DNA of 46,567 nucleotides, from contig JAKAUM010000013.1 in assembly GCA_021827685.1 (NCBI GenBank), positions 1 to 46,567 of the forward strand, given 5' to 3'. A model generated the notes under the pieces. The model was not told where the DNA came from and made no database searches. It was given only the letters and a program-made list of their open reading frames with translations. Of this stretch, positions 37,421 through 46,567 are shown piece after piece (positions within the stretch are counted from its first letter, which is position 1; each line of letters begins with the position of its first letter). This DNA comes from a bacterium. Its GTDB lineage: Bacteria; Patescibacteriota; Minisyncoccia; UBA6257; 2-01-FULL-56-20. Made by a program: the position numbers and the translations under genes.

Positions 37421-37537
37421 CGCCGCCGAGCGGTGAATTAAACTGAAAGTAGCCATTATATAATTAAATATCGGTTTCAAGCGGCATGATTGCCGCAATC
37501 GCCGCGATATAAGCGGCATGCATTCTTTTCCCCATCC

Positions 37538-37571
37538 CCCGTTGCACGATGTGCCGGGGGACTTTTCTTAT
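37538..37571 (+). terminator. Stem-loop terminator after tyrS
   Basis: A GC stem (CCCCG 37538-37542 with CGGGG 37556-37560) encloses a second small stem GCAC/GTGC and is followed by a T-rich run (ACTTTTCTTAT). It separates tyrS from the hydrolase gene. The 188-nt gap also holds a 6-bp hairpin (GCGGCA/TGCCGC near 37481-37496). Confidence 0.65.
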
Positions 37572-37596
37572 AGGCAACAAAACTCCGAATAGGTTG

Positions 37597-37602
37597 TATA
37601 AT
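37597..37602 (+). promoter_or_regulatory. -10 element of the isochorismatase-fold gene
   Basis: TATAAT ends 6 nt before the ATG at 37609, predicting a leaderless transcript. No convincing -35. Confidence 0.5.
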
Positions 37603-37608
37603 AGACGC

Positions 37609-38226
37609 ATGGCCGACCCATTATTCGACATTTCAAGGACTGCGCTCGTCGTCATAGATCTCCAAAAAGGAATCGTCGGCGGCAAAACCGAGCCGCATGC
37701 CGCAGAGGTCGTGGTGGCGAACGCAGCAGCGCTCGCGGGCGCATTCAGGTCGCATGGGATGCCCGTTTTTCTCGTCCGGGTGACGCCGTCGGCGGACGGA
37801 CGCGACGGCCTGAAGCCGGTTGCCGATGCCCAGCCGTTGGCATTCCCGCGCACGGCGGGTTGGGCCGAACTCGTCCCCGAGCTCGGGCCGGAGCCCGGCG
37901 ATTTTCTCATTACGAAGCGTCAATGGGGCGCGTTCTACGGAACCGAGCTCGACCTGCAGCTCCGCCGCCGCGGGATAACCACGATCGTCCTCTGCGGCAT
38001 ATCGACGAACATCGGCGTGGAAAGCACGGCGCGATTTGCGTATGAATACGGCTATCAGCAGATATTCGTCGAGGACGCTACCGCCGCCCGCTCCGAGGAG
38101 GAGCACTCATTCACGATGAAAACGATATTCGGCAGGATCGGACGAGTCCGGAAGACGGAGGATGTTCTGAAAGAATTGAGGGATGTCTATGCGAAAGTAC
38201 GAACTCATTTTACCCAAAATCTGTGA
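37609..38226 (+). CDS. Isochorismatase-fold hydrolase without the usual Cys
   Basis: A 205-aa protein of the isochorismatase-like hydrolase superfamily. Asp17 (ALVVIDLQKG) and Lys103 (ITKRQWGAF) of the catalytic site are present. The third position, normally the Cys nucleophile in a T-x-x-C-V-x-x-T motif, is Gly136 in STNIGVEST; Cys129 nearby is outside the motif. Non-thiol members such as true isochorismatases also have IG here. The substrate cannot be told. It is the last housekeeping-like gene before the accessory island. Confidence 0.85.
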   Translation: MADPLFDISRTALVVIDLQKGIVGGKTEPHAAEVVVANAAALAGAFRSHGMPVFLVRVTPSADGRDGLKPVADAQPLAFPRTAGWAELVPELGPEPGDFLITKRQWGAFYGTELDLQLRRRGITTIVLCGISTNIGVESTARFAYEYGYQQIFVEDATAARSEEEHSFTMKTIFGRIGRVRKTEDVLKELRDVYAKVRTHFTQNL

Positions 38227-38391
38227 ACTTTGATACCGGGCTACCCCTGCATTGACCCCTGCATTCGGGGTTGCAGAGGTGGGCATCGCATCTATCTCCG
38301 CCGTTACTGGCCTAATCGCCAAATCGAGGGGCATATTCGACCCCCGACAATACTCACCGTCGGCGTCCTGCTGGCCGCCTCCGGTTCGTGT
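38227..38391. other. Gene-free island boundary with small repeats
   Basis: No credible gene is seen in 38227-38593. The stretch before the 124-nt repeat has a 12-bp tandem direct repeat (ACCCCTGCATT at 38243 and 38255) and short hairpins such as CTGCA/TGCAG and CCGAC/GTCGG. Translations of either strand look like noise. It may be debris at the edge of an inserted element. Confidence 0.4.
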
Positions 38392-38515
38392 CCTCGGAGA
38401 GAGAACCACGCCCGCCGCAAGGAAGGGTCAAGGGAAGGAATGGTGGCGGCGTGGTTCTCTCTCCTCGGCTCACGGTGCTTACTGCTCCACAAGGGCACAG
38501 CCCTGTTCCGGTTGG
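38392..38515 (+). repeat. 124-nt inverted repeat, left copy
   Basis: This is the exact reverse complement of 46444-46567. It folds into a stem-loop with 17-bp arms (GGAGAGAGAACCACGCC at 38396 and its complement at 38448-38464) and a purine-rich loop. A shorter AGGGC-ACA-GCCCT hairpin follows. The right copy runs to the last base of the window, which suggests the sequence is multi-copy. Similarity fades after GGTTGG at 38515. Confidence 0.85.
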
Positions 38516-38558
38516 TGTGTGTGGGTATAAAAAGAAAAAAGATGGTTCAATAATTTTA

Positions 38559-38587
38559 TTGCTCCCGCGCGGCGATTTTGATATTAT
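38559..38587 (+). promoter_or_regulatory. Promoter of the first island gene
   Basis: TTGCTC (38559-38564), 17-bp spacer and TATTAT (38582-38587), ending 6 nt before the ATG at 38594. Leaderless start predicted. Confidence 0.5.
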
Positions 38588-38593
38588 TAAGCC

Positions 38594-38974
38594 ATGATCC
38601 CGAACGGAATTTCCTCGAAATACGCATTCTTCGCAGTTGCCGCCGTCGCGATCATGGCTTCCTCATTCTGTGGGGTGGGCATCTCTCGCATGGCGGGGGT
38701 GCCCATGACTACTCCGTCATGTTCCATGAGTCACACATTCACGGTTCCCGCCCCGCTGTCCGGGAATAAAGCCATTTTCTTGCTCATAAGCGTTTTTCTT
38801 GCCGTGGTGGCAGCAACCAATATCAAAAAAGAAAGAAAGCTTTCTTTTGAATCTGGCGGCGCTTCTGCCAACCATATTTTCAGCGAGGTGCACCGTCCAC
38901 AATTCTTCGCGCAACTTTTTAGCCAAGGCATTTTGAACCCAAAACTTTTTGGCGTCGCCGCGATCCGCCCATAG
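38594..38974 (+). CDS. Small membrane protein with Met/Cys/His loop
   Basis: A 126-aa protein with two membrane helices (about 9-30 and 58-74). The loop between them, GISRMAGVPMTTPSCSMSHTF, is rich in Met, Cys and His, so it could bind copper or another soft metal outside the cell. A basic cytosolic tail follows. No family was recognised. It is the first gene of the island, with its own promoter, 94 nt before the DsbA-like gene. Confidence 0.6.
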   Translation: MIPNGISSKYAFFAVAAVAIMASSFCGVGISRMAGVPMTTPSCSMSHTFTVPAPLSGNKAIFLLISVFLAVVAATNIKKERKLSFESGGASANHIFSEVHRPQFFAQLFSQGILNPKLFGVAAIRP

Positions 38975-39068
38975 CCGGTTCGCGCAATTTTATTTTGCCG
39001 TGAACCAGCTCCGCGGTCGTTTTTGTTTCGTCTGTTCAAATAACCAATTTATCCTTAATAAATATCCC

Positions 39069-39854
39069 ATGGAACATCAACATCACGAACATAGTCATGA
39101 AGAGCCGAAAGAGCCCGTCGCTATCGCATCGGCAAAACAGAAAGATCGATTCCTTCCCGCATCGATCCTCATCGCCGCAGTGGTCATCGCCGGATCGGTA
39201 GTCTTTGCCGCTACGAGGCCGAGCGGCGGAGGTGTCATCACTCTACCGATCGCAACGACGACCGCAGGTTCGGCGGGAACCGCCGCAGCGCCCGTTCCGC
39301 CCATCGGCAGCGGCGAAGCGATTCTCGGCAATGCGAACGCCCCCGTGACGTTCATCGAGTACGGCGACTACCAATGTCCGTTCTGCGGACGCATGTTTAC
39401 GAACGTCGAGCCGCAGCTGCGGACTGACTACATCAATACCGGCAAAGTGAAGATGGTCTTTAGGAACTTCCAGTTCTTGGGGCCTGAATCGACGGCCGCC
39501 GGTGCCGCCGCGTACTGCGCTGCCGACCAGAGCAAGTTCTGGGCATATCGGGATGCGTTATATCAGGCGAAAGTGAACGAGGTCGCGAACAACGGTGGTA
39601 GCGAGAACGACGGCTTCTTTAGCCGAAGCCTGTTCCTGAAACTCGCGAACCAGACCGGTCTCGACGCGACGACCTTCACCTCTTGCATCGACAGCAACAA
39701 GTATGCGAGTAAGGTCGAAAAGGATAAGGCGGACGCTTCGGCAGTCGGCGTGAATTCGACGCCGACGAACTACATCAACGGGCAGCAAGTGCTCGGTGCC
39801 CAGCCATATACCGCGTTCAAGGCAGTGATCGATGCTGCCCTCCAAGGGAAATAG
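39069..39854 (+). CDS. Membrane-anchored DsbA-like thiol oxidoreductase
   Basis: A 261-aa protein. The N-terminus MEHQHHEHSHEEP is His-rich and probably metal-binding. A membrane anchor (about 29-48) and a linker precede a thioredoxin-fold domain with the active site YGDYQCPFCGRMF (CPFC) and a cis-Pro loop VNSTPTNYING. Two more Cys (YCAAD, TSCID) may form a structural disulfide. The domain is the DsbA/BdbD type that makes disulfides outside the membrane. Start 39069 gives this N-terminus; an upstream start would be an unlikely extension. Confidence 0.9.
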   Translation: MEHQHHEHSHEEPKEPVAIASAKQKDRFLPASILIAAVVIAGSVVFAATRPSGGGVITLPIATTTAGSAGTAAAPVPPIGSGEAILGNANAPVTFIEYGDYQCPFCGRMFTNVEPQLRTDYINTGKVKMVFRNFQFLGPESTAAGAAAYCAADQSKFWAYRDALYQAKVNEVANNGGSENDGFFSRSLFLKLANQTGLDATTFTSCIDSNKYASKVEKDKADASAVGVNSTPTNYINGQQVLGAQPYTAFKAVIDAALQGK

Positions 39855-39870
39855 CAAAAGCAAGGGAACC

Positions 39871-40413
39871 ATGCTGTTTCAGGCATTTAAAGAAGTGTTC
39901 GGCAGATTTCGTTTTATCGCGCTTGCGCTCGTTGCGGGCTTCGCGGCATTTGAGTTTACAGTATGGTTCCCCAATCTCGGCCTCATCGTGCATACCATGA
40001 TGGGCGATGCATCCCTCGGTATAAAGGCAGAGCTTCTCTATGGACTCTCTGCGGGCATCAGCACCAATTTCACCCCGCTCTCTGCAACGTACACGACGCT
40101 CATCGCCATTCTCTTTGGCGTGAACCTTACAATGATCGTCTACTACGTCATGAAAAGGAAATCATTCGGAAGACAGGCGCTCGCGGTAAGTTCGGGAGCT
40201 GTAGCGAGCGGGGCATTGGGCATCGGATGCGCGGCGTGCGGCTCGCTTGTCGGAGGATACTTCCTTGCTTTTTTCGGTGCGTCGGGCGTCGCAACGCTTC
40301 TGCCGCTCAAAGGAGAAGAGTTCGGGATCCTGAGCGTCTTGCTGTTCGGTATCTCCACGTACGTGATTGCCCGAAAAATAGTCGAACCGGCGGTCTGCAA
40401 ACCTAGCTATTGA
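39871..40413 (+). CDS. Polytopic membrane protein with CxxCGS motif
   Basis: A 180-aa protein with about five membrane helices. Its hallmark is GIGCAACGSLVGGYFLAFFGASGVATLLPLKG, then GEEFGILSVLLF. The pattern C-x2-C-G-S, then L-P-x2-G-x-E-x(3)-L-S is also found in the 526-aa protein encoded at 41590, so the two are related. No named family was recognised. AGGGA 5 nt before the ATG at 39871 fixes the start; an ATG at 39832 would overlap the DsbA gene. Possibly a thiol or metal carrier in the membrane. Confidence 0.7.
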   Translation: MLFQAFKEVFGRFRFIALALVAGFAAFEFTVWFPNLGLIVHTMMGDASLGIKAELLYGLSAGISTNFTPLSATYTTLIAILFGVNLTMIVYYVMKRKSFGRQALAVSSGAVASGALGIGCAACGSLVGGYFLAFFGASGVATLLPLKGEEFGILSVLLFGISTYVIARKIVEPAVCKPSY

Positions 40414-40422
40414 TTTATCTAT

Positions 40423-41010
40423 ATGAAGAAAAAATATCTTTTCCCTTCGCTCGTTATCGCCCTCGCGGTAGTGACAGCCGGGTACATCGTGTTTTCCTCG
40501 GGCGGCCTTTCCCGCCTCTCATCTGCGAAGCCGTTCGCATTCGCCGACAAGGCGCTTGCGGCGAAGTTCGATTACTTGAGCAAGAACGGCAATTCCTCAT
40601 GCTCAGGCAATTTCCTACAGTCCGTGAAAAGCGGCACAACGGGCACGGGACGCCTTGAGGGATCCTGCTGCAGCCCGATGGATCCGAAGCGATACAGCGA
40701 ACAGGTCGCGGGATTGAAACAGTACGCCAATGTCCCCGAGATTCCCCCGGATCCCTACGACATCGACGCGAGTCTCGCACAAAAGCTCACGGGTTACTAT
40801 GATACGCAGCTTACGCCCGACGAGCAAAAAGCGTATGATTACGCCATGCAGAACTCGATGGAAAAGGGGCCGTGCTGCTGCAAATGCTGGCGGTGGTACG
40901 TGTATGGCGGCTTGGGAAAATTACTCATTCAGAAATACCATTTTACCGGCCAGCAGGTGACCGACATTTGGAACTTGTCTGACGGATGCGGAGGCCCGGA
41001 AACTTCATAA
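40423..41010 (+). CDS. Membrane-anchored Cys-rich protein, PCYCGC-like
   Basis: A 195-aa protein with an N-terminal anchor (about 5-24) and an extracellular part holding about nine Cys, in EGSCCSPMD and GPCCCKCWRWYVYGG. It resembles PCYCGC-motif proteins of other bacteria. The stretch LTPDEQKAYDYAMQNSMEKGPCC matches LTAEQEALVTNIAQNSYRPCC of the protein at 41590, showing a shared domain. It begins 9 nt after the CxxCGS membrane gene. Metal binding or thiol exchange is likely, based on the Cys pairs. Confidence 0.7.
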   Translation: MKKKYLFPSLVIALAVVTAGYIVFSSGGLSRLSSAKPFAFADKALAAKFDYLSKNGNSSCSGNFLQSVKSGTTGTGRLEGSCCSPMDPKRYSEQVAGLKQYANVPEIPPDPYDIDASLAQKLTGYYDTQLTPDEQKAYDYAMQNSMEKGPCCCKCWRWYVYGGLGKLLIQKYHFTGQQVTDIWNLSDGCGGPETS

Positions 41011-41020
41011 ACATTCTTAA

Positions 41021-41578
41021 ATGGATCTCTTAAACAAAAAAGAAGGATGGGAGATAAGGACGAAACGGACGCGCCGTAGGAAGTTTCTCGAAGTCGTTGG
41101 AATATTAGCCGCGGTGGTTGCGAGTATCGGCGGGATCGCATGGTATGTCGCGACCCGCCCTACGGCGCCCCCTCCGCCTCCCGGCGAGATCATTTCGGAG
41201 ACGGGCATCCATTGGCATCCCCAGCTCACGATTACCATTAAAGGCGAGGGTCAAGTGATACCCGGAGACATTGGTATGGGCATGCAATTTGCCGGATATC
41301 CGCAGTACGATCCAATGATGATGATGACGGATATGCACACCCATGACGATTCGGGGCAGCTGCATTGGGAAATTATGAAGGGCCCCGTCACGAAAGACCA
41401 AGTGCGCCTCAGCAACTTCTTCGGCATTTGGGGCAAGACGTTCACGAGCTCATGCATTTTCACTTATTGCAACGGGCCGCAGGGCCATCTCACGTTCAAG
41501 GTCAATGGAAAGAATAACCAGGATTTTGAAAATTATCTCGTAAAAGATAACGATAAGATCGAGATTATCTTTCAATAA
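41021..41578 (+). CDS. Membrane-anchored His/Met-rich protein
   Basis: A 185-aa protein with a basic cytosolic N-terminus, one membrane helix (about 22-45), a Pro-rich linker, and an extracellular beta-rich domain. Metal-ligand clusters stand out: GIHWHPQL, then YDPMMMMTDMHTHDDSGQLHWE and TSSCIFTYC. The His-x-His, Met-rich and Cys pair pattern suggests copper or another metal. Similar IHWHPHL-type domains occur in bacteria and archaea with no settled function. It lies 10 nt after the PCYCGC-like gene. Confidence 0.65.
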   Translation: MDLLNKKEGWEIRTKRTRRRKFLEVVGILAAVVASIGGIAWYVATRPTAPPPPPGEIISETGIHWHPQLTITIKGEGQVIPGDIGMGMQFAGYPQYDPMMMMTDMHTHDDSGQLHWEIMKGPVTKDQVRLSNFFGIWGKTFTSSCIFTYCNGPQGHLTFKVNGKNNQDFENYLVKDNDKIEIIFQ

Positions 41579-41589
41579 GAGTCATACTC

Positions 41590-43170
41590 ATGGAACAACA
41601 TAATAAAAAAATGAAGACAATTATAGAGATGGTATCGTCTCTTAGTGAAGAAGAGGAGCAGACGAAAAAAGGCGGACACGTGTCAAAGGACATCGCATCG
41701 CGCACTCGATTTTTCTATGTGCTGATTGCCTACACAGCCTCCGTGGGCCTCTTTCTTCTCTTTTATTGGGGGCTTCGATTGAATGCGAGCATCGGAATGC
41801 TGATTGACAATACGTACGATAAGCCGCTCTACTTCTGGCCGTATGTTCTGCTCACGCTTGGAACCATCGCGCTCTTTGGCGTGAACATCGCTCTTTTGAC
41901 CTACCGCATCAGGAGATTCGGCTTCCCAAAACTTAGGCAGCAGGCCGGAACCGGCATAGGTTCTTTTGTGGGCCTCGCCGCTTCGGCATGTCCCATGTGC
42001 GGATCGGCAATCCTTTCCACCCTCGGCATCGCAGGCGGGCTTGCGGCGTTGCCCTTCGGAGGGCTTGAGCTAAAAACACTTTCATTCGGGTTGATGGCGC
42101 TGCCGATCTGGCTCATCCTACGCGATATGAAAAAAATGAAGTCGTTGCCCACTGATGTGCCGCCGGAAACTCTATCAGAGATGAGCGGTGAAAACACATG
42201 CCCGGTCCCGCGGGATGCCTCTTTTCAGGAAAAAGATCGGTGGTGGCTTGCCGGGACGTGTGCGCTCCTCATCATCTTCAGCGCTCTTGGATGGAATATG
42301 CTCGTGAGCGATCCGATCCTTTACGTGCACGCATCGCTAAAGAACCAAATGAATAGTTTGGGAACGAACGCCTCGACTACCGGATATCCCGTATATAGCG
42401 AGGTGGTGGCGAAGGTTCTGCCCGCGAAAGGATTTCAGAGCAAAATTGTTTTGGGAGACAGCATCGTAAAATTGGTTGAAGATGGAGTGATCGACCCGGA
42501 TAAATTTCAAGCGATTTACAAGGCGCGTGGCGGGCTGCCCGACGAATTCAAGAACGTGCTTAGTATGTCATCAACCAAGCCGATCCTTCTCACGGCGGAC
42601 AACGCCAATTTCTACGTGAACCTTCTCTGGCCCATCGGACTCTCAAACTATATGGCGACGAACAAACAGAGTCCGGTGAATGGGAAAAATCTTTTCGGGT
42701 TCGCTTCGACGGGCGGCTGGAACTTAGGAAAAGCATCGAACGGAGGAGCGTACTTCAATAAACTTGATATCGTGAATCTCACCGCCGAACAAGAAGCGCT
42801 CGTCACGAACATAGCGCAAAACTCTTACCGTCCCTGTTGTAACAATTCCACGTTTTTTCAGGACTGCAACCACGGGTCGGCCTTACTCGGCCTTCTGGAG
42901 CTTGGGGCAAGCCAAGGGCTCACGGAAGCTGACCTCTATCGCGAAGCGCTTGCCTTCAACTCATTCTGGTTTCCGCCAAATTACATCGATATCGGGCTTT
43001 ACTTCAAAGCGGTCAAAAACATTGATTGGGAAAATGTGGATCCTAAAGTGGTGCTTGGGAAAGAGTACTCAAGCGCAACTGGCAATTACCAAATTCAAGC
43101 CGATGTAGCAAAGATTCCCAATCTTATCCCTCCTGCGCCGAGTGGTGGCGGTGGAAGCTGCGGGACATAA
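41590..43170 (+). CDS. Fusion of CxxCGS membrane module and PCC-domain
   Basis: A 526-aa protein. N-terminal helices (about 40-175) include ASACPMCGSAILSTLGIAGGLAALPFGG, then LELKTLSFGL, the same motif as in the protein at 39871. After a further helix (about 217-235) a ~290-aa extracellular region ends with YRPCCNNSTFFQDCNHGSALLGLLELGA, related to the protein at 40423. It thus joins in one chain two modules that are separate genes upstream. The tail ends SCGT. No catalytic domain was recognised. Confidence 0.7.
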   Translation: MEQHNKKMKTIIEMVSSLSEEEEQTKKGGHVSKDIASRTRFFYVLIAYTASVGLFLLFYWGLRLNASIGMLIDNTYDKPLYFWPYVLLTLGTIALFGVNIALLTYRIRRFGFPKLRQQAGTGIGSFVGLAASACPMCGSAILSTLGIAGGLAALPFGGLELKTLSFGLMALPIWLILRDMKKMKSLPTDVPPETLSEMSGENTCPVPRDASFQEKDRWWLAGTCALLIIFSALGWNMLVSDPILYVHASLKNQMNSLGTNASTTGYPVYSEVVAKVLPAKGFQSKIVLGDSIVKLVEDGVIDPDKFQAIYKARGGLPDEFKNVLSMSSTKPILLTADNANFYVNLLWPIGLSNYMATNKQSPVNGKNLFGFASTGGWNLGKASNGGAYFNKLDIVNLTAEQEALVTNIAQNSYRPCCNNSTFFQDCNHGSALLGLLELGASQGLTEADLYREALAFNSFWFPPNYIDIGLYFKAVKNIDWENVDPKVVLGKEYSSATGNYQIQADVAKIPNLIPPAPSGGGGSCGT

Positions 43171-43194
43171 CATGCTGAAATTTTATTCAACGCC

Positions 43195-43431
43195 ATGAAA
43201 TGTAGCCCGAAAACAATGTTGAAGATAGGTTTTGCGCTTGCGATTGTTCTTGGTGCCGGTTTTCTTCTCATACCTCAACTCCGGCCCGCCATCATTGGCC
43301 TCGCCCCCTTCGCCCTTTTTGCGCTCTGCCCGCTCTCAATGATATTCATGATGAGCAGCATGGATAAAAGCCGGGATCATCATGATAACGCCACCGCTGA
43401 CACGTCCGAACGTAAACATCCAACGTTATAA
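43195..43431 (+). CDS. Small DUF2933-like membrane protein
   Basis: A 78-aa protein with two membrane helices (about 8-26 and 29-52), a CPLSMIFMMSSM segment and a His/Asp-rich tail (SRDHHDNATADT). This matches the look of DUF2933 proteins, which are often found with metal-resistance genes. The Cys-Pro and Met cluster in the second helix may touch metal. The family call is by resemblance only. Confidence 0.6.
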   Translation: MKCSPKTMLKIGFALAIVLGAGFLLIPQLRPAIIGLAPFALFALCPLSMIFMMSSMDKSRDHHDNATADTSERKHPTL

Positions 43432-43443
43432 AACACCATCATT

Positions 43444-44001
43444 ATGGAAGAATCAAAAAATCAAAGTAAAAAAGAGGAAGGCTTACAGGGCAGAGAATTG
43501 TATGAATTTCGGAAACACCAAAAAGACCGAGAGCGCCAGAAAGAGCAGAAAAAAGAAAGTCTGAAACAAGCTCCAAAGAAAGTCGCGAAATATTTTCCTT
43601 ATGCGCTGGGATTGATAGCCATTGCCGGAGGGATTGGATGGTTGGTGTGGAACATCGCGAATACTCCGAATTTGCCGCCCACGACGCCCGAAGGTCACAC
43701 CGAAGAATCGCCTGCGGCGCACATTATGAGCATTCCGATACCGGATACCATCCAGCGCCATATGCTGGAACATGCCGACGGCAAAGGAAAGCCCGGCATC
43801 ATCATTCAATACAATTGCACAAAATATTCTTGTGCATCAGATTTGATAGCCAAACTCACCGAACTCGTGAAGCAGTATCCGGATAACGTTTATCTTGCGC
43901 CGAACAATTACGACGGCGAAATCATCCTTACCAAGATGGGCAGCATAAAAACCCTCAGTGGTTTTGACGGCCAAGCGATCGAAGCGTTTATCGGCTCGTA
44001 A
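43444..44001 (+). CDS. DUF3105-like membrane-anchored protein
   Basis: A 185-aa protein with a long charged cytosolic N-terminus (Lys/Glu/Gln-rich, 1-50), one membrane helix (about 55-75) and an extracellular domain. The block IPIPDTIQRHMLEHADGKGKPGIIIQYNC, then YPDNVYLAPNNYDGEIILTKMG, is like DUF3105 domains (conserved LEH and VAPN-like motifs). A Cys pair (NCTKYSC) is present. It ends 9 nt before the opposing peptidase gene's end. Confidence 0.65.
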   Translation: MEESKNQSKKEEGLQGRELYEFRKHQKDRERQKEQKKESLKQAPKKVAKYFPYALGLIAIAGGIGWLVWNIANTPNLPPTTPEGHTEESPAAHIMSIPIPDTIQRHMLEHADGKGKPGIIIQYNCTKYSCASDLIAKLTELVKQYPDNVYLAPNNYDGEIILTKMGSIKTLSGFDGQAIEAFIGS

Positions 44002-44010
44002 TGCGAGGCT

Positions 44011-45222
44011 TCAAACCAGCGAGAACAAACTTTTCGTTTCGCTGAAGGCAGTTTCGTCTGTGGTATTGATCGGTTTCCCGGGCGGCGGCACAATCGCGAG
44101 CGGATTGACCAACGTGCCCGACTTTCGCACTTCGTAATGAAGATGCGGGCCGGTCGAAAGTCCGGTTGAACCCACGTAGCCGATGATCTGGCCTTGGGTT
44201 ACATGTGCGCCTATTTTGATCCCTTTGCCGAATCGCGAAAAATGCCCGTAGGTCGTCGTGTATCCTTTGTCATGGTGGATCACCACTTTATTGCCGTATT
44301 CCCCGCGCCACCCGGCGTCCGTGATTACCCCGTCTCCGATCGCGACCACCGGGGTTCCGGCTGCTGCTGCAAAATCAACGGCGCGGTGCGGTTCGATCGC
44401 TCCGTTTACGGGATCAACCCGACGGTAGGTAAAGTAGGTGCTGACATATTTGTATTGAAGCGGGAATTTCAGAAACATCCTCTTCAGCGACAGGCCATTT
44501 TCGTCATAATATCCTGCCGGGGTTTTGTCGGATTTGAAATAATAAGCGTAAAACGATTGCCCGCTGTTCACGAACTTTGCAGCCAAAATCTTTCCCGGCA
44601 TCTGGTATGTGCCGTTCAAGTAGCGCGCTTCGTAAGTCACCGCGAATGAATCTCCCTTTTGAACATGGAAAGCGAAATCAACCTGCCATGCAAAGATTTC
44701 CGAGAGGAGGATAGCGAGCTTTGGGTCTTTGTTCAAATCAATGAACGTTTGATAGACGGAACTATCGACCGTACCTTGCACTGTTTCGATTTTGGTTTCA
44801 TAAGGGATATCAACGATCTGGGCCCGCCATTGATCGCTGCTCGTGCTCTCGATTTGCAGGTTTTGGTCTGCGTTCACCGTGTAGACGATCCTTTTCAATT
44901 GGTTAGTGGTTTGATCGACGAAGAATGAGAGCAGGTTGCCTGCCGTTAATTTCGATGTGTCATAAACGTTTGCGAGCGAAGCCATAATTGATTGCTTTGT
45001 GGTGCTGCCGATCGAGCCGGGTAGTTCATTCAAAAGATCGTAAAAAGAATATCCGGCGGGTATCCGCTTGTCGATTTCCGCGAGAACGGGAGGTGGTTGC
45101 TGGGTTTGGGTTTGGACTGCCGAACTATGGTTTGGTCGGTGCAAATAAAAGAATAAGGAAAACCCTGCTACTACCAAAAACATCGCCGAGATGATTGCGC
45201 TCCAGTGACTTCTCCTTTTCAT
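44011..45222 (-). CDS. M23 (LytM) peptidase with N-terminal anchor
   Basis: A 403-aa cell wall endopeptidase. An N-terminal anchor (about 9-27) is followed by a ~240-aa alpha-beta domain like those before LytM domains in MepM-type enzymes. The M23 zinc domain has HRAVDFAAAAGTPV, YGHFSRFG and GPHLHYEVRK, with all ligands present. The start at 45222 is preferred; an ATG at 45294 lies in the csoR -35 box. It is divergent from csoR and may be expressed with the island to remodel the wall around envelope proteins. Confidence 0.85.
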   Translation of the reverse strand: MKRRSHWSAIISAMFLVVAGFSLFFYLHRPNHSSAVQTQTQQPPPVLAEIDKRIPAGYSFYDLLNELPGSIGSTTKQSIMASLANVYDTSKLTAGNLLSFFVDQTTNQLKRIVYTVNADQNLQIESTSSDQWRAQIVDIPYETKIETVQGTVDSSVYQTFIDLNKDPKLAILLSEIFAWQVDFAFHVQKGDSFAVTYEARYLNGTYQMPGKILAAKFVNSGQSFYAYYFKSDKTPAGYYDENGLSLKRMFLKFPLQYKYVSTYFTYRRVDPVNGAIEPHRAVDFAAAAGTPVVAIGDGVITDAGWRGEYGNKVVIHHDKGYTTTYGHFSRFGKGIKIGAHVTQGQIIGYVGSTGLSTGPHLHYEVRKSGTLVNPLAIVPPPGKPINTTDETAFSETKSLFSLV

Positions 45223-45287
45223 GTGATGGTGGTTCTTTAACAACGAATTAAGTGTATCGGAAAATGTATCGCTTGCCCATAGAGCTT

Positions 45288-45316
45288 TTGACATCAACAC
45301 CCCCTAGGGGTATAAT
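45288..45316 (+). promoter_or_regulatory. csoR promoter with GC-palindrome operator in the spacer
   Basis: TTGACA (45288-45293), 17-bp spacer and TATAAT (45311-45316): a perfect consensus promoter. The spacer ends CCCCCTAGGGG, containing the palindrome CCCCTAGGGG (45301-45310). CsoR-family operators are GC-tracts with AT ends, so a repressor bound here would block RNA polymerase. The start codon is 8 nt after the -10, a near-leaderless message. Confidence 0.75.
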
Positions 45317-45324
45317 GGAAGTAT

Positions 45325-45597
45325 ATGAAGAAAGAGGCAAAAAAGAAAACAGTCCGCCGCTTGAAAATCGTCCAAGGGCAACTCAAGGGGCTGATGCAAA
45401 TGGTCGAGGATGAAAAATACTGCGTTGACATTATCACCCAATCAAGCGCCATCAAAGAAGCGCTTTCTGGCGTTGAGCATCTGATCCTCGAGAACCATCT
45501 TTCTACCCACGTCATCGAGCAGATGAAATCCGGTAAAGAAAAAAAGGCGATCGAAGAGATCCTGAAGGTCTATAAACTTTCGCAAAGGAAAAAATAA
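45325..45597 (+). CDS. csoR: CsoR/RcnR-family metal-sensing repressor
   Basis: A 90-aa, all-helical DUF156 repressor. The metal site reads Cys33, His58 and His62 (YCVDIITQSS, then ENHLSTHV). The spacing equals that of CsoR (Cys-His-Cys) but the third ligand is His, as in nickel/cobalt RcnR; the extra N-terminal His of RcnR is absent. It likely represses its own promoter until a metal binds. It is followed 2 nt later by the DoxX-like gene. Whether it senses copper, nickel or another signal cannot be told from sequence. Confidence 0.92.
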   Translation: MKKEAKKKTVRRLKIVQGQLKGLMQMVEDEKYCVDIITQSSAIKEALSGVEHLILENHLSTHVIEQMKSGKEKKAIEEILKVYKLSQRKK

Positions 45598-45599
45598 TA

Positions 45600-45944
45600 A
45601 TGCCACTCTCGATATTCATTTTAAGAATTGGTCTCGGCATCACCTTCGCTTTAACGGGCGTTTTGATCCTCAAAGATGACGATAAGTGGACGCACATGGT
45701 GCCGGATTGGTTCGCCAAGTATCTGCCCTCGGCTCGTTCGTTTATGATTACCACTGCTGTGGGAGATATCTTCCTCGGCGCATGGATTTTAAGTGGCTAT
45801 TTTACGGGCATCGCCGCGCTCTTGGCGGCCTTACATCTGGCCGGAGTGCTCATTGTATCGGGAAAGAAGGAATTTCATGAAGTGTATAGGGATATCGGGC
45901 TTTTGTTTGCGTGCGTAGCGTTGGCTGTTTATTTTCTTTTATAG
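45600..45944 (+). CDS. Small DoxX-like membrane protein
   Basis: A 114-aa protein with four membrane helices (about 3-24, 46-66, 68-88 and 95-113), the size and layout of DoxX/DoxD-type proteins. ILKDDDKWTHMVPDWFAKYLP lies between helices one and two. The family includes membrane proteins linked to redox and sulfur or metal chemistry. It is co-transcribed with csoR, so it is probably metal-controlled. Confidence 0.7.
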   Translation: MPLSIFILRIGLGITFALTGVLILKDDDKWTHMVPDWFAKYLPSARSFMITTAVGDIFLGAWILSGYFTGIAALLAALHLAGVLIVSGKKEFHEVYRDIGLLFACVALAVYFLL

Positions 45945-45947
45945 ACC

Positions 45948-46037
45948 ATGGATCACAACCACCAAATAACTCAATATAGAACCATTAAGGAATCCTGGAC
46001 ATCTGGCCCGATTCGTTGCCTAATCTCTGCCTCTTAG
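45948..46037 (+). pseudogene. 29-codon remnant of a third csoR-operon gene
   Basis: An ATG 3 nt after the DoxX-like stop opens MDHNHQITQYRTIKESW and stops after 29 codons. Its tight spacing and His-rich start suggest a former metal-related gene whose rest was lost when the recombinase element arrived. It could instead be a chance reading. Confidence 0.3.
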
Positions 46038-46090
46038 TTATCGACTCGGCCAGCCTGGACGCCCAAGCGGGGTTGCGTCATCTCTTAGGT

Positions 46091-46342
46091 ATGACTAACC
46101 AAATCAAGGGGTCGGCAGGAGCGGCGACCTCAATCAACCCACCGCTGCCAGTAAAGGTCGCCTACTGTCTGTATGCACGAAAGAGTACGGAGAGTGAGGA
46201 ACAGCAAGTCCTTTCAATAGACAGCCAAATCAAGGAGATGATCAAGATCGCCGAGCGGGATGGGCTTGAGATCGCGGAAATTCGTAAGGAATCCCACTCA
46301 GCGAAAGCAGTAGGCCATCCGAAGGGCGGAGATAGAGGATAA
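46091..46342 (+). pseudogene. Truncated large serine recombinase
   Basis: Eighty-three residues of a serine site-specific recombinase N-terminal domain. VAYCLYARKSTESEEQQVLSIDSQIKEM contains the Tyr-x-Arg-x-Ser catalytic motif (Ser nucleophile in YARKS), then EIRKESHSAKAVG, after which similarity ends and a stop follows. Complete enzymes of this type have 450-550 residues. Only the catalytic start remains here, followed by hairpins and the right 124-nt repeat, so it is probably inactive. It hints at how the island arrived. Confidence 0.8.
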
Positions 46343-46345
46343 AAT

Positions 46346-46377
46346 CGAAAAATGGATTCAGAATGATCCATTTTTCG
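46346..46377. repeat. 12-bp perfect hairpin
   Basis: CGAAAAATGGAT (46346-46357) and ATCCATTTTTCG (46366-46377) with an 8-nt loop, right where the recombinase reading breaks off. It may be an end of the element that disrupted the gene or a terminator. Confidence 0.6.
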
Positions 46378-46391
46378 CCGCATAATGATGC

Positions 46392-46427
46392 GCTCACGGC
46401 CATGCGGCCATGAGCTATATTGTTTTT
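46392..46427 (+). terminator. Terminator-like hairpin
   Basis: GCTCA (46392-46396) with TGAGC (46411-46415), an inner GGCC/GGCC stem with one mismatch between them, then TATATTGTTTTT. It could end transcription running from the csoR side before it reaches the 124-nt repeat. Confidence 0.55.
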
Positions 46428-46443
46428 CCTTTCCCCACCCGCG

Positions 46444-46567
46444 CCAACCGGAACAGGGCTGTGCCCTTGTGGAGCAGTAAGCACCGTGAGCCGAGGAGAG
46501 AGAACCACGCCGCCACCATTCCTTCCCTTGACCCTTCCTTGCGGCGGGCGTGGTTCTCTCTCCGAGG
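46444..46567 (-). repeat. 124-nt inverted repeat, right copy
   Basis: Exact reverse complement of 38392-38515. It runs to the final base of the window, so its true outer boundary is unknown. Together with the left copy it brackets 8.2 kb holding the metal/thiol gene set. Confidence 0.85.

Follow-up and report, generated by a model that had tools for sequence, protein, structure and literature searches.

What is the function of the genes for cysteine-rich envelope proteins that lie at the right-hand end of contig JAKAUM010000013.1? This contig of assembly GCA_021827685.1 was analysed whole, as a stretch of 46,567 nucleotides here called the window, and ends at a repeat. The host genome is 567 kb in size, of the patescibacterial kind and about 90% complete. 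A first-pass annotation had grouped the genes between positions 38594 and 45944 and proposed a membrane relay that captures or detoxifies a soft metal through thiols; the genes it named were all found open and intact where it had placed them. The present analysis suggests, with a probability of roughly 55%, that the set is an envelope defence module against soft metals, most likely copper(I), operating as a thiol relay without a pump. A soft-metal function exerted through thiols is well supported by the neighbourhoods of homologous genes. We infer the identity of the metal, its binding, and the direction in which electrons or metal would flow.

Conserved proteins of the gene set

Three proteins carry the argument. 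P0002 (39832-40413, plus strand, with an ATG at 39871 that is a more likely start than the annotated one) is a CxxCG-family membrane protein with a CAACGS motif and a C-terminal cysteine, conserved in the family alignment A2. P0003 (40423-41010, plus strand) is an anchored cysteine-rich protein with the motif GPCCCKCWRW and eight cysteines, supported by alignment A4 and a match to the PCC profile. P0005 (41590-43170, plus strand; 526 residues) is a fusion of a CxxCG membrane domain (CPMCGS) and an extracytoplasmic PCC domain (RPCCNNS..DCNHG), supported by alignments A1 and A3 and a structural model. P0002 and the CxxCG region at the N-terminal end of P0005 are homologues (E = 1.8e-4), in agreement with the two CxxCGS membrane proteins reported by the first-pass annotation. 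Its PCYCGC-like label did not survive, as PF13798 matched neither P0003 nor P0005; that model found no window protein at E values up to 1, no aligned P0003 or P0005 homologue up to 0.1, and nothing in the host's own genome. No Pfam model matched P0003, the CxxCG domain or the PCC domain.

All eight cysteines of P0003 are invariant in 19 aligned sequences, and Cys134, Cys137, Cys204, Cys416, Cys417, Cys426, His428, and Cys524 of P0005 (window numbering) are invariant across 26 fused sequences. Hydropathy and charge suggest that Cys204 of P0005 is cytosolic, that Cys134 and Cys137 are within the membrane, and that the PCC domain is outside. Profile comparison linked P0003 and the PCC domain at E = 2.7e-5 and a probability of 74%, in an alignment that superposes their CC motifs. 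Neither the CcdA/DsbD models (PF02683 and PF13386) nor the MerT and MerC models of Pfam matched P0002, P0005, or the family members compared, which numbered 17 in the case of CcdA/DsbD. A sequence-profile search of the PDB gave nothing significant for P0003 or for the PCC domain (best E = 0.15). The AlphaFold model of P0005 was of moderate quality, with a mean predicted local distance difference test score (pLDDT) of 75.7 and values over 90 in places within the PCC domain; that of P0003 had a pLDDT of 77.6. Several fused proteins, among them those of loci L092, L097, L106, and L112, have an extra N-terminal zinc-ribbon-like cysteine domain (YQCEECGF...CKEHQSCN), which is absent from P0005 of the window.

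Recurrence of the set

A contig scan found at least 576 places with PCC relatives, of which the 80 most similar were fetched. Among 287 genomes sampled across the phylum, P0005 had matches in 39 and full-length P0003 occurred in three (the host, G095, and G122), always adjoining a fused P0005. In 18 distinct loci the P0003 gene precedes a fused P0005 gene on the same strand, with a gap of at most 55 nt in 15 of them. In locus L113 the DsbA, CxxCG, P0003, and P0005 genes are consecutive, and in L097 the gene for P0004, another protein of the set, sits between P0003 and P0005, matching the order of the window. The order P0004-DUF2933-P0005 is seen in L091, while L109 contains DsbA, two copies of P0007, P0005, and CsoR. 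Within the same family, a P0005 match is present in 22 of 38 genomes, mostly as a stand-alone PCC protein about 45% identical, and a second fused copy is found in G296 only. Of 18 stand-alone CxxCG genes, 13 have a DsbA gene no more than 400 nt away on the same strand. On a haloarchaeal plasmid (L085, 5057-6537) a DsbA-like gene and a CxxCG gene overlap. A secreted family that has no Pfam match (L149, 6984-7589, and 22 further neighbours) is found near stand-alone PCC genes in 21 loci.

Copper neighbourhoods

The stand-alone PCC genes are found in the company of copper genes: a CPx P-type ATPase is nearby in 37 of 77 copies and CsoR in 20 of 77. Counted within 5 kb, a P-type ATPase accompanies 40 of the 77 stand-alone loci, DUF1573 28, CcdA 24, and CsoR 19, whereas the corresponding numbers for the 28 fused loci are 3, 0, 1, and 1, with P0003 in 17. 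Locus L104, which is the same contig as L034, was removed from this comparison of fused and stand-alone genes and kept in the counts of 37 and 20. Only about 2% of 10-kb windows would include a P-type ATPase by chance (one such gene in a genome of 567 kb), so the association of stand-alone PCC with copper pumps is strong. Fisher tests of fused against stand-alone genes gave 1e-9 for P0003, 1e-4 for the ATPase, and 3e-3 for CcdA, p-values that serve as a guide only because the loci are interrelated. The fused form appears to do without copper pumps.

The gene content of high-G+C proteobacterial loci was judged by tblastn markers. tblastn detected homologues of P0003 that cover about 70% of the protein and are 57-63% identical to it on 11 plasmids from Sinorhizobium, Ensifer, and Microvirga, and Burkholderia and Paraburkholderia contributed two short partial hits; P0004 and P0007 had no match in the plasmid search. 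On pSinB and an S. meliloti plasmid the order is SCO...DsbA-CcdA-P0003, and the surrounding genes include CusA, RND efflux, multicopper oxidase, PCu(A)C, P-type ATPase, and DUF411 or DUF305. PCC homologues of Burkholderia plasmids are accompanied by CueR, P-type ATPase, CcdA, DUF411, and DUF2933. The last of these has a counterpart in the window, P0006 (43195-43431, plus strand), a small membrane protein that matched PF11666 with E = 3.2e-10 and 40.4 bits against a cut-off of 21. DUF2933 is a member of the copA clusters of Alteromonas (PMC8478169) and is mentioned next to pcoG in a Salmonella copper and silver island (PMC12582456). Literature searches found no paper that joins DUF2933, DUF3105, and PCYCGC, and nothing relevant on CsoR or copper homeostasis in Patescibacteria.

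The host's own genome has no CPx-type ATPase, no CcdA that could be found, and no VKOR match stronger than a weak one below the cut-off. Its only P-type ATPase, on another contig (C5; L083, 2235-4115), has GPV where CPC is expected.

The CsoR gene and its operator

P0009 (45325-45597, plus strand) is a repressor of the CsoR/RcnR family (PF02583, E = 8.4e-24, 84.2 bits against a cut-off of 22.8). It is preceded by a perfect sigma-70 consensus promoter (TTGACA-17-TATAAT, 45288-45316, plus strand), which is oriented toward this gene and the following DoxX-like gene and has a CsoR-type operator, ACCCCCTAGGGGT, at 45299-45311 in the spacer between its two boxes. The promoter matches the consensus at 12 of 12 positions, which is unusually strong. 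A similar palindrome is present upstream of related CsoR genes (L039, L040, L049, L054, L058, L061, L069, L157, and L162), and several related CsoR genes with the same Cys-His-His (C-H-H) fingerprint adjoin PCC and CPx ATPase genes. Cu(I)-sensing CsoR proteins are marked by C-H-C ligands or, in Thermus thermophilus, by C-H-H. P0009 has the C-H-H set, which is common to T. thermophilus CsoR and RcnR; the former is a Cu(I) sensor with His likewise in the last (Z) position (PMC4235346), and RcnR shares HxxxH (PMC4528141).

Mercury operons

Four loci from Levybacteria and Daviesbacteria (L087, L090, L099, and L107) combine an ArsR-type regulator, P0003, a fused P0005, and MerA in one operon. The MerA gene of the L099 operon separates P0003 from P0005, and the L107 operon includes P0004 as well. 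The full-length MerA proteins of L107 and L099 scored over the cut-off of TIGR02053, the L090 copy is cut by the contig end, and the MerA of these operons has a C-terminal SCC. Unnamed components are apparently in place of MerP and MerT. The DsbA-CxxCG-P0003-P0005 series of L113 has a mer set at a distance of about 2.5 kb. MerA has been reported in bacteria of the candidate phyla radiation (PMC8261052), and the parts of that report that were consulted do not mention the genes that accompany it. MerA was found neither in the window nor in the rest of the host's own genome, which is about 90% complete.

Other genes of the set and the surrounding island

Eight plus-strand genes stand in series from 38594 to 44001, followed by an M23 gene on the minus strand and the CsoR-DoxX pair on the plus strand. 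The series opens with P0011 (38594-38974, plus strand), a small cysteine-containing membrane protein that belongs to a small membrane family recurring in related loci (26 bits with the profile of that family). P0001 (39069-39854, plus strand) is a membrane-anchored DsbA-like thioredoxin-fold protein with a CPFC motif (Pfam Thioredoxin_4, E = 1.9e-37), as the first-pass annotation had it; the His-rich tail that was also described is N-terminal and, by hydropathy, cytosolic. P0004 (41021-41578, plus strand) is an anchored His/Met-rich protein with HWHP and MHTHD motifs and no Pfam match, and has homologues near related loci. P0008 (44011-45294, minus strand) is an M23 peptidase (PF01551, E = 5.8e-33) that is probably accessory to the set, and P0010 (45600-45944, plus strand) is a DoxX-like membrane protein (PF07681, E = 9.7e-7). 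The M23, DoxX-like, DUF2933, and CsoR-family labels were each backed by a Pfam match. The DUF3105-like label fared less well for P0007 (43444-44001, plus strand), an anchored protein with the motif YNCTKYSC that reached only E = 0.12 and 12.8 bits with PF11303, below the gathering cut-off of 25. Its homologue in L149 came closer (7.7e-4, 19.9 bits, same cut-off); a distant relationship to DUF3105 is likely. Copies of P0007 that are 54% identical adjoin P0005 in L109 and L174.

The gene set lies on an island of 8 kilobases, in which the G+C content drops from about 0.58 to 0.48-0.52 across the genes. The island is bracketed by an inverted repeat of at least 124 nt whose left arm (38392-38515, plus strand) holds a strong hairpin (z = -4.5) and is identical to the right arm (46444-46567, minus strand), which stops at the contig end. 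These are the only two copies in the host's own genome. None was seen among the 60 relatives searched, and the idea of a repeat common in the clade was rejected. Just inside the right arm (46145-46342, plus strand) is the truncated N-terminal fragment of a serine recombinase, with the YARKSTE motif of the intact recombinase of L089 and a stop codon after about 65 residues. Full-length recombinase-like frames are present in three other fetched loci (L069, L088, and L089). A search of 37500-46567 against Rfam and a PADLOC search gave no match.

In a tree of 110 PCC domains the window falls inside a supported group. Its 42 rows come from many patescibacterial lineages, from beta- and alphaproteobacteria, and from two archaea. 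Horizontal transfer is the natural reading of such a group, to whose mixing of lineages metagenome bins may contribute. The best reading is that the set is foreign, acquired horizontally as an island of lower G+C content between inverted repeats. The G+C drop, the identical repeats on either side, and the presence of the same genes together elsewhere indicate that the grouping is more than chance.

A gene matching the PCYCGC family does exist in genome G116 (L202, about 1341-1869). It has two in-frame TGA codons, seemingly at conserved cysteine positions, whereas none occurs in the roughly 330 codons of an adjacent cation-efflux frame; the TGA codons may possibly encode selenocysteine.

Discussion

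The island is a variant of the metal-resistance island made of unnamed, widespread protein families. In the mechanism that we favour, the conserved Cys and His clusters of P0003 and of the P0005 PCC domain would capture Cu(I) outside the membrane. The CxxCG proteins, with a CxxC pair in the membrane and a cytosolic cysteine after the fourth transmembrane segment, would work with the DsbA-like protein to cycle the thiols of P0003 and the PCC domain, so keeping both competent to bind Cu(I). CxxCG would take the position that CcdA has in related rhizobial operons, with the DsbA-like protein as its partner, and P0004, the DUF2933 and DUF3105-like proteins, and P0011 may be accessory copper-binding or membrane parts. 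Cu(I) would relieve the repression by CsoR at the 45288-45316 promoter; that CsoR controls the main operon as well is assumed.

Several observations count against this assignment. MerA replaces the copper genes in the operon in at least 4 of the 28 distinct fused loci; no second CsoR operator was found upstream of the main operon; and the C-H-H fingerprint also occurs in RcnR, a sensor of nickel and cobalt. Foldseek and VIA-align gave no clear PDB fold match for P0003 or whole P0005, and neither structures nor biochemical data were found for P0003, PCC, or CxxCG. In addition, the counts are not independent, as the loci are interrelated and only the most similar 80 were kept. The metal is the weakest point, given that MerA is present in related fused operons and absent from the host's own genome.

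Copper is nevertheless the more likely metal. If mercury were handled, P0003 and P0005 would catch Hg(II) outside and CxxCG would pass it to the cytosol in the role of MerP and MerT, and the ArsR-P0003-P0005-MerA operons, the mer set in L113, and a fused protein with cysteines at both faces of the membrane and an intramembrane pair are what this would lead one to expect. This reading is unlikely, since no MerA was found in the host genome, about 90% complete, the window regulator is CsoR and neither ArsR nor MerR, the proteobacterial homologues reside mainly within copper islands, and no MerT or MerC match was obtained. The main rival, which is rather doubtful, concerns what the CxxCG proteins carry: soft metal in place of a CPx P-type pump, rather than electrons. 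The scarcity of P-type ATPases at fused loci (in 3 of 28, compared with 40 of 77 where PCC stands alone), the lack of a CPx pump in the host genome, and the ladder of conserved cysteines from cytosolic Cys204 through intramembrane Cys134 and Cys137 to the outer PCC domain all speak for transport, but DsbA is the usual partner of stand-alone CxxCG, CcdA, an electron carrier, fills the CxxCG slot in rhizobial operons, and the CxxCG proteins have no energy-coupling domain.

The metal genes could also be neighbours through co-residence on islands only, the set being a general envelope system for disulfides or oxidative stress. DsbA-CxxCG pairs do occur away from metal genes, as in L073-L075 and on the haloarchaeal plasmid, but P0003 and PCC stand consistently beside metal genes in unrelated lineages and the window includes CsoR and DUF2933, which makes such a system quite improbable. 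Least probable is delivery of copper to an extracytoplasmic enzyme in the manner of SCO/TlpA systems: although P0003 and PCC homologues have genes for SCO, TlpA, PCu(A)C, and multicopper oxidase in their vicinity, the window set has no cuproenzyme gene, and derepression under excess metal suits defence better.

The first-pass annotation was correct that no copper pump or mer gene is visible in the window, and the same holds for CPx-type ATPases and MerA in the host's own genome. It had named a lack of co-occurrence elsewhere as what would refute its idea, and the genes do co-occur elsewhere; unlike the window, homologous sets elsewhere adjoin CPx ATPases or MerA. Of its proposed soft-metal thiol relay, the soft-metal and thiol role gained support from homologous copper islands and MerA operons, and the relay itself is still conjectural. 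A wider proposal, which we offer tentatively and hold at somewhat less than even odds, is that the CxxCG proteins represent a novel type of conduit across the membrane, carrying either thiol electrons or soft-metal ions and replacing CcdA and the P-type pump, and that P0003 and PCC form one unrecognised extracytoplasmic metal-thiolate superfamily of patescibacteria, proteobacteria, and archaea, serving for copper or for mercury depending on the operon. P0003, CxxCG, and PCC are three widespread families inside metal-resistance islands that have no Pfam or NCBIfam name, PCC occurring at hundreds of places in bacterial and archaeal genomes. If the proposed function is correct, bacteria with minimal genomes possess a defence against copper or mercury that dispenses with the usual pump, and "hypothetical proteins" of conjugative copper-resistance plasmids gain names and a testable role.

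Comparison with known systems

CcmH is served by CcdA or DsbD via a thioredoxin-fold protein, a relay that would fit the neighbourhoods observed here. The PCC core aligned with CcmH of Pseudomonas aeruginosa (2hl7) with a Z score of 4.9 and a root-mean-square deviation of 2.9 over 77 of 82 residues. A profile alignment, which was not significant (probability 2%), set LRCxxCQN over YRPCCNN with the Cys motifs in register. The resemblance is a lead only. The CcdA or DsbD, CcmG, and CcmH relay has CcdA and a thioredoxin-fold protein as partners in the same way, but the window set, unlike the CcmH systems of cytochrome c maturation, has no cytochrome or heme genes.

The ArsR-MerA operons of Levybacteria and Daviesbacteria have P0003 and the fused CxxCG-PCC protein in tandem as in the window, which differs in having CsoR and no MerA. 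In the Sinorhizobium copper islands of pSinB and the S. meliloti accessory plasmid, as in the window, a DsbA gene is followed by one for a membrane thiol protein and then by P0003 or its homologue. The islands have CcdA as this membrane protein and also encode pumps, RND efflux, and oxidases, whereas in the window no pump is near and CxxCG stands in the place of CcdA. The CsoR-CopA operons of patescibacteria likewise have a CsoR with C-H-H or C-H-C ligands, a TACCCCnnnGGGGTA operator, and a PCC gene. Those operons encode a CPx ATPase, while the window does without this ATPase and has its PCC domain fused to CxxCG.

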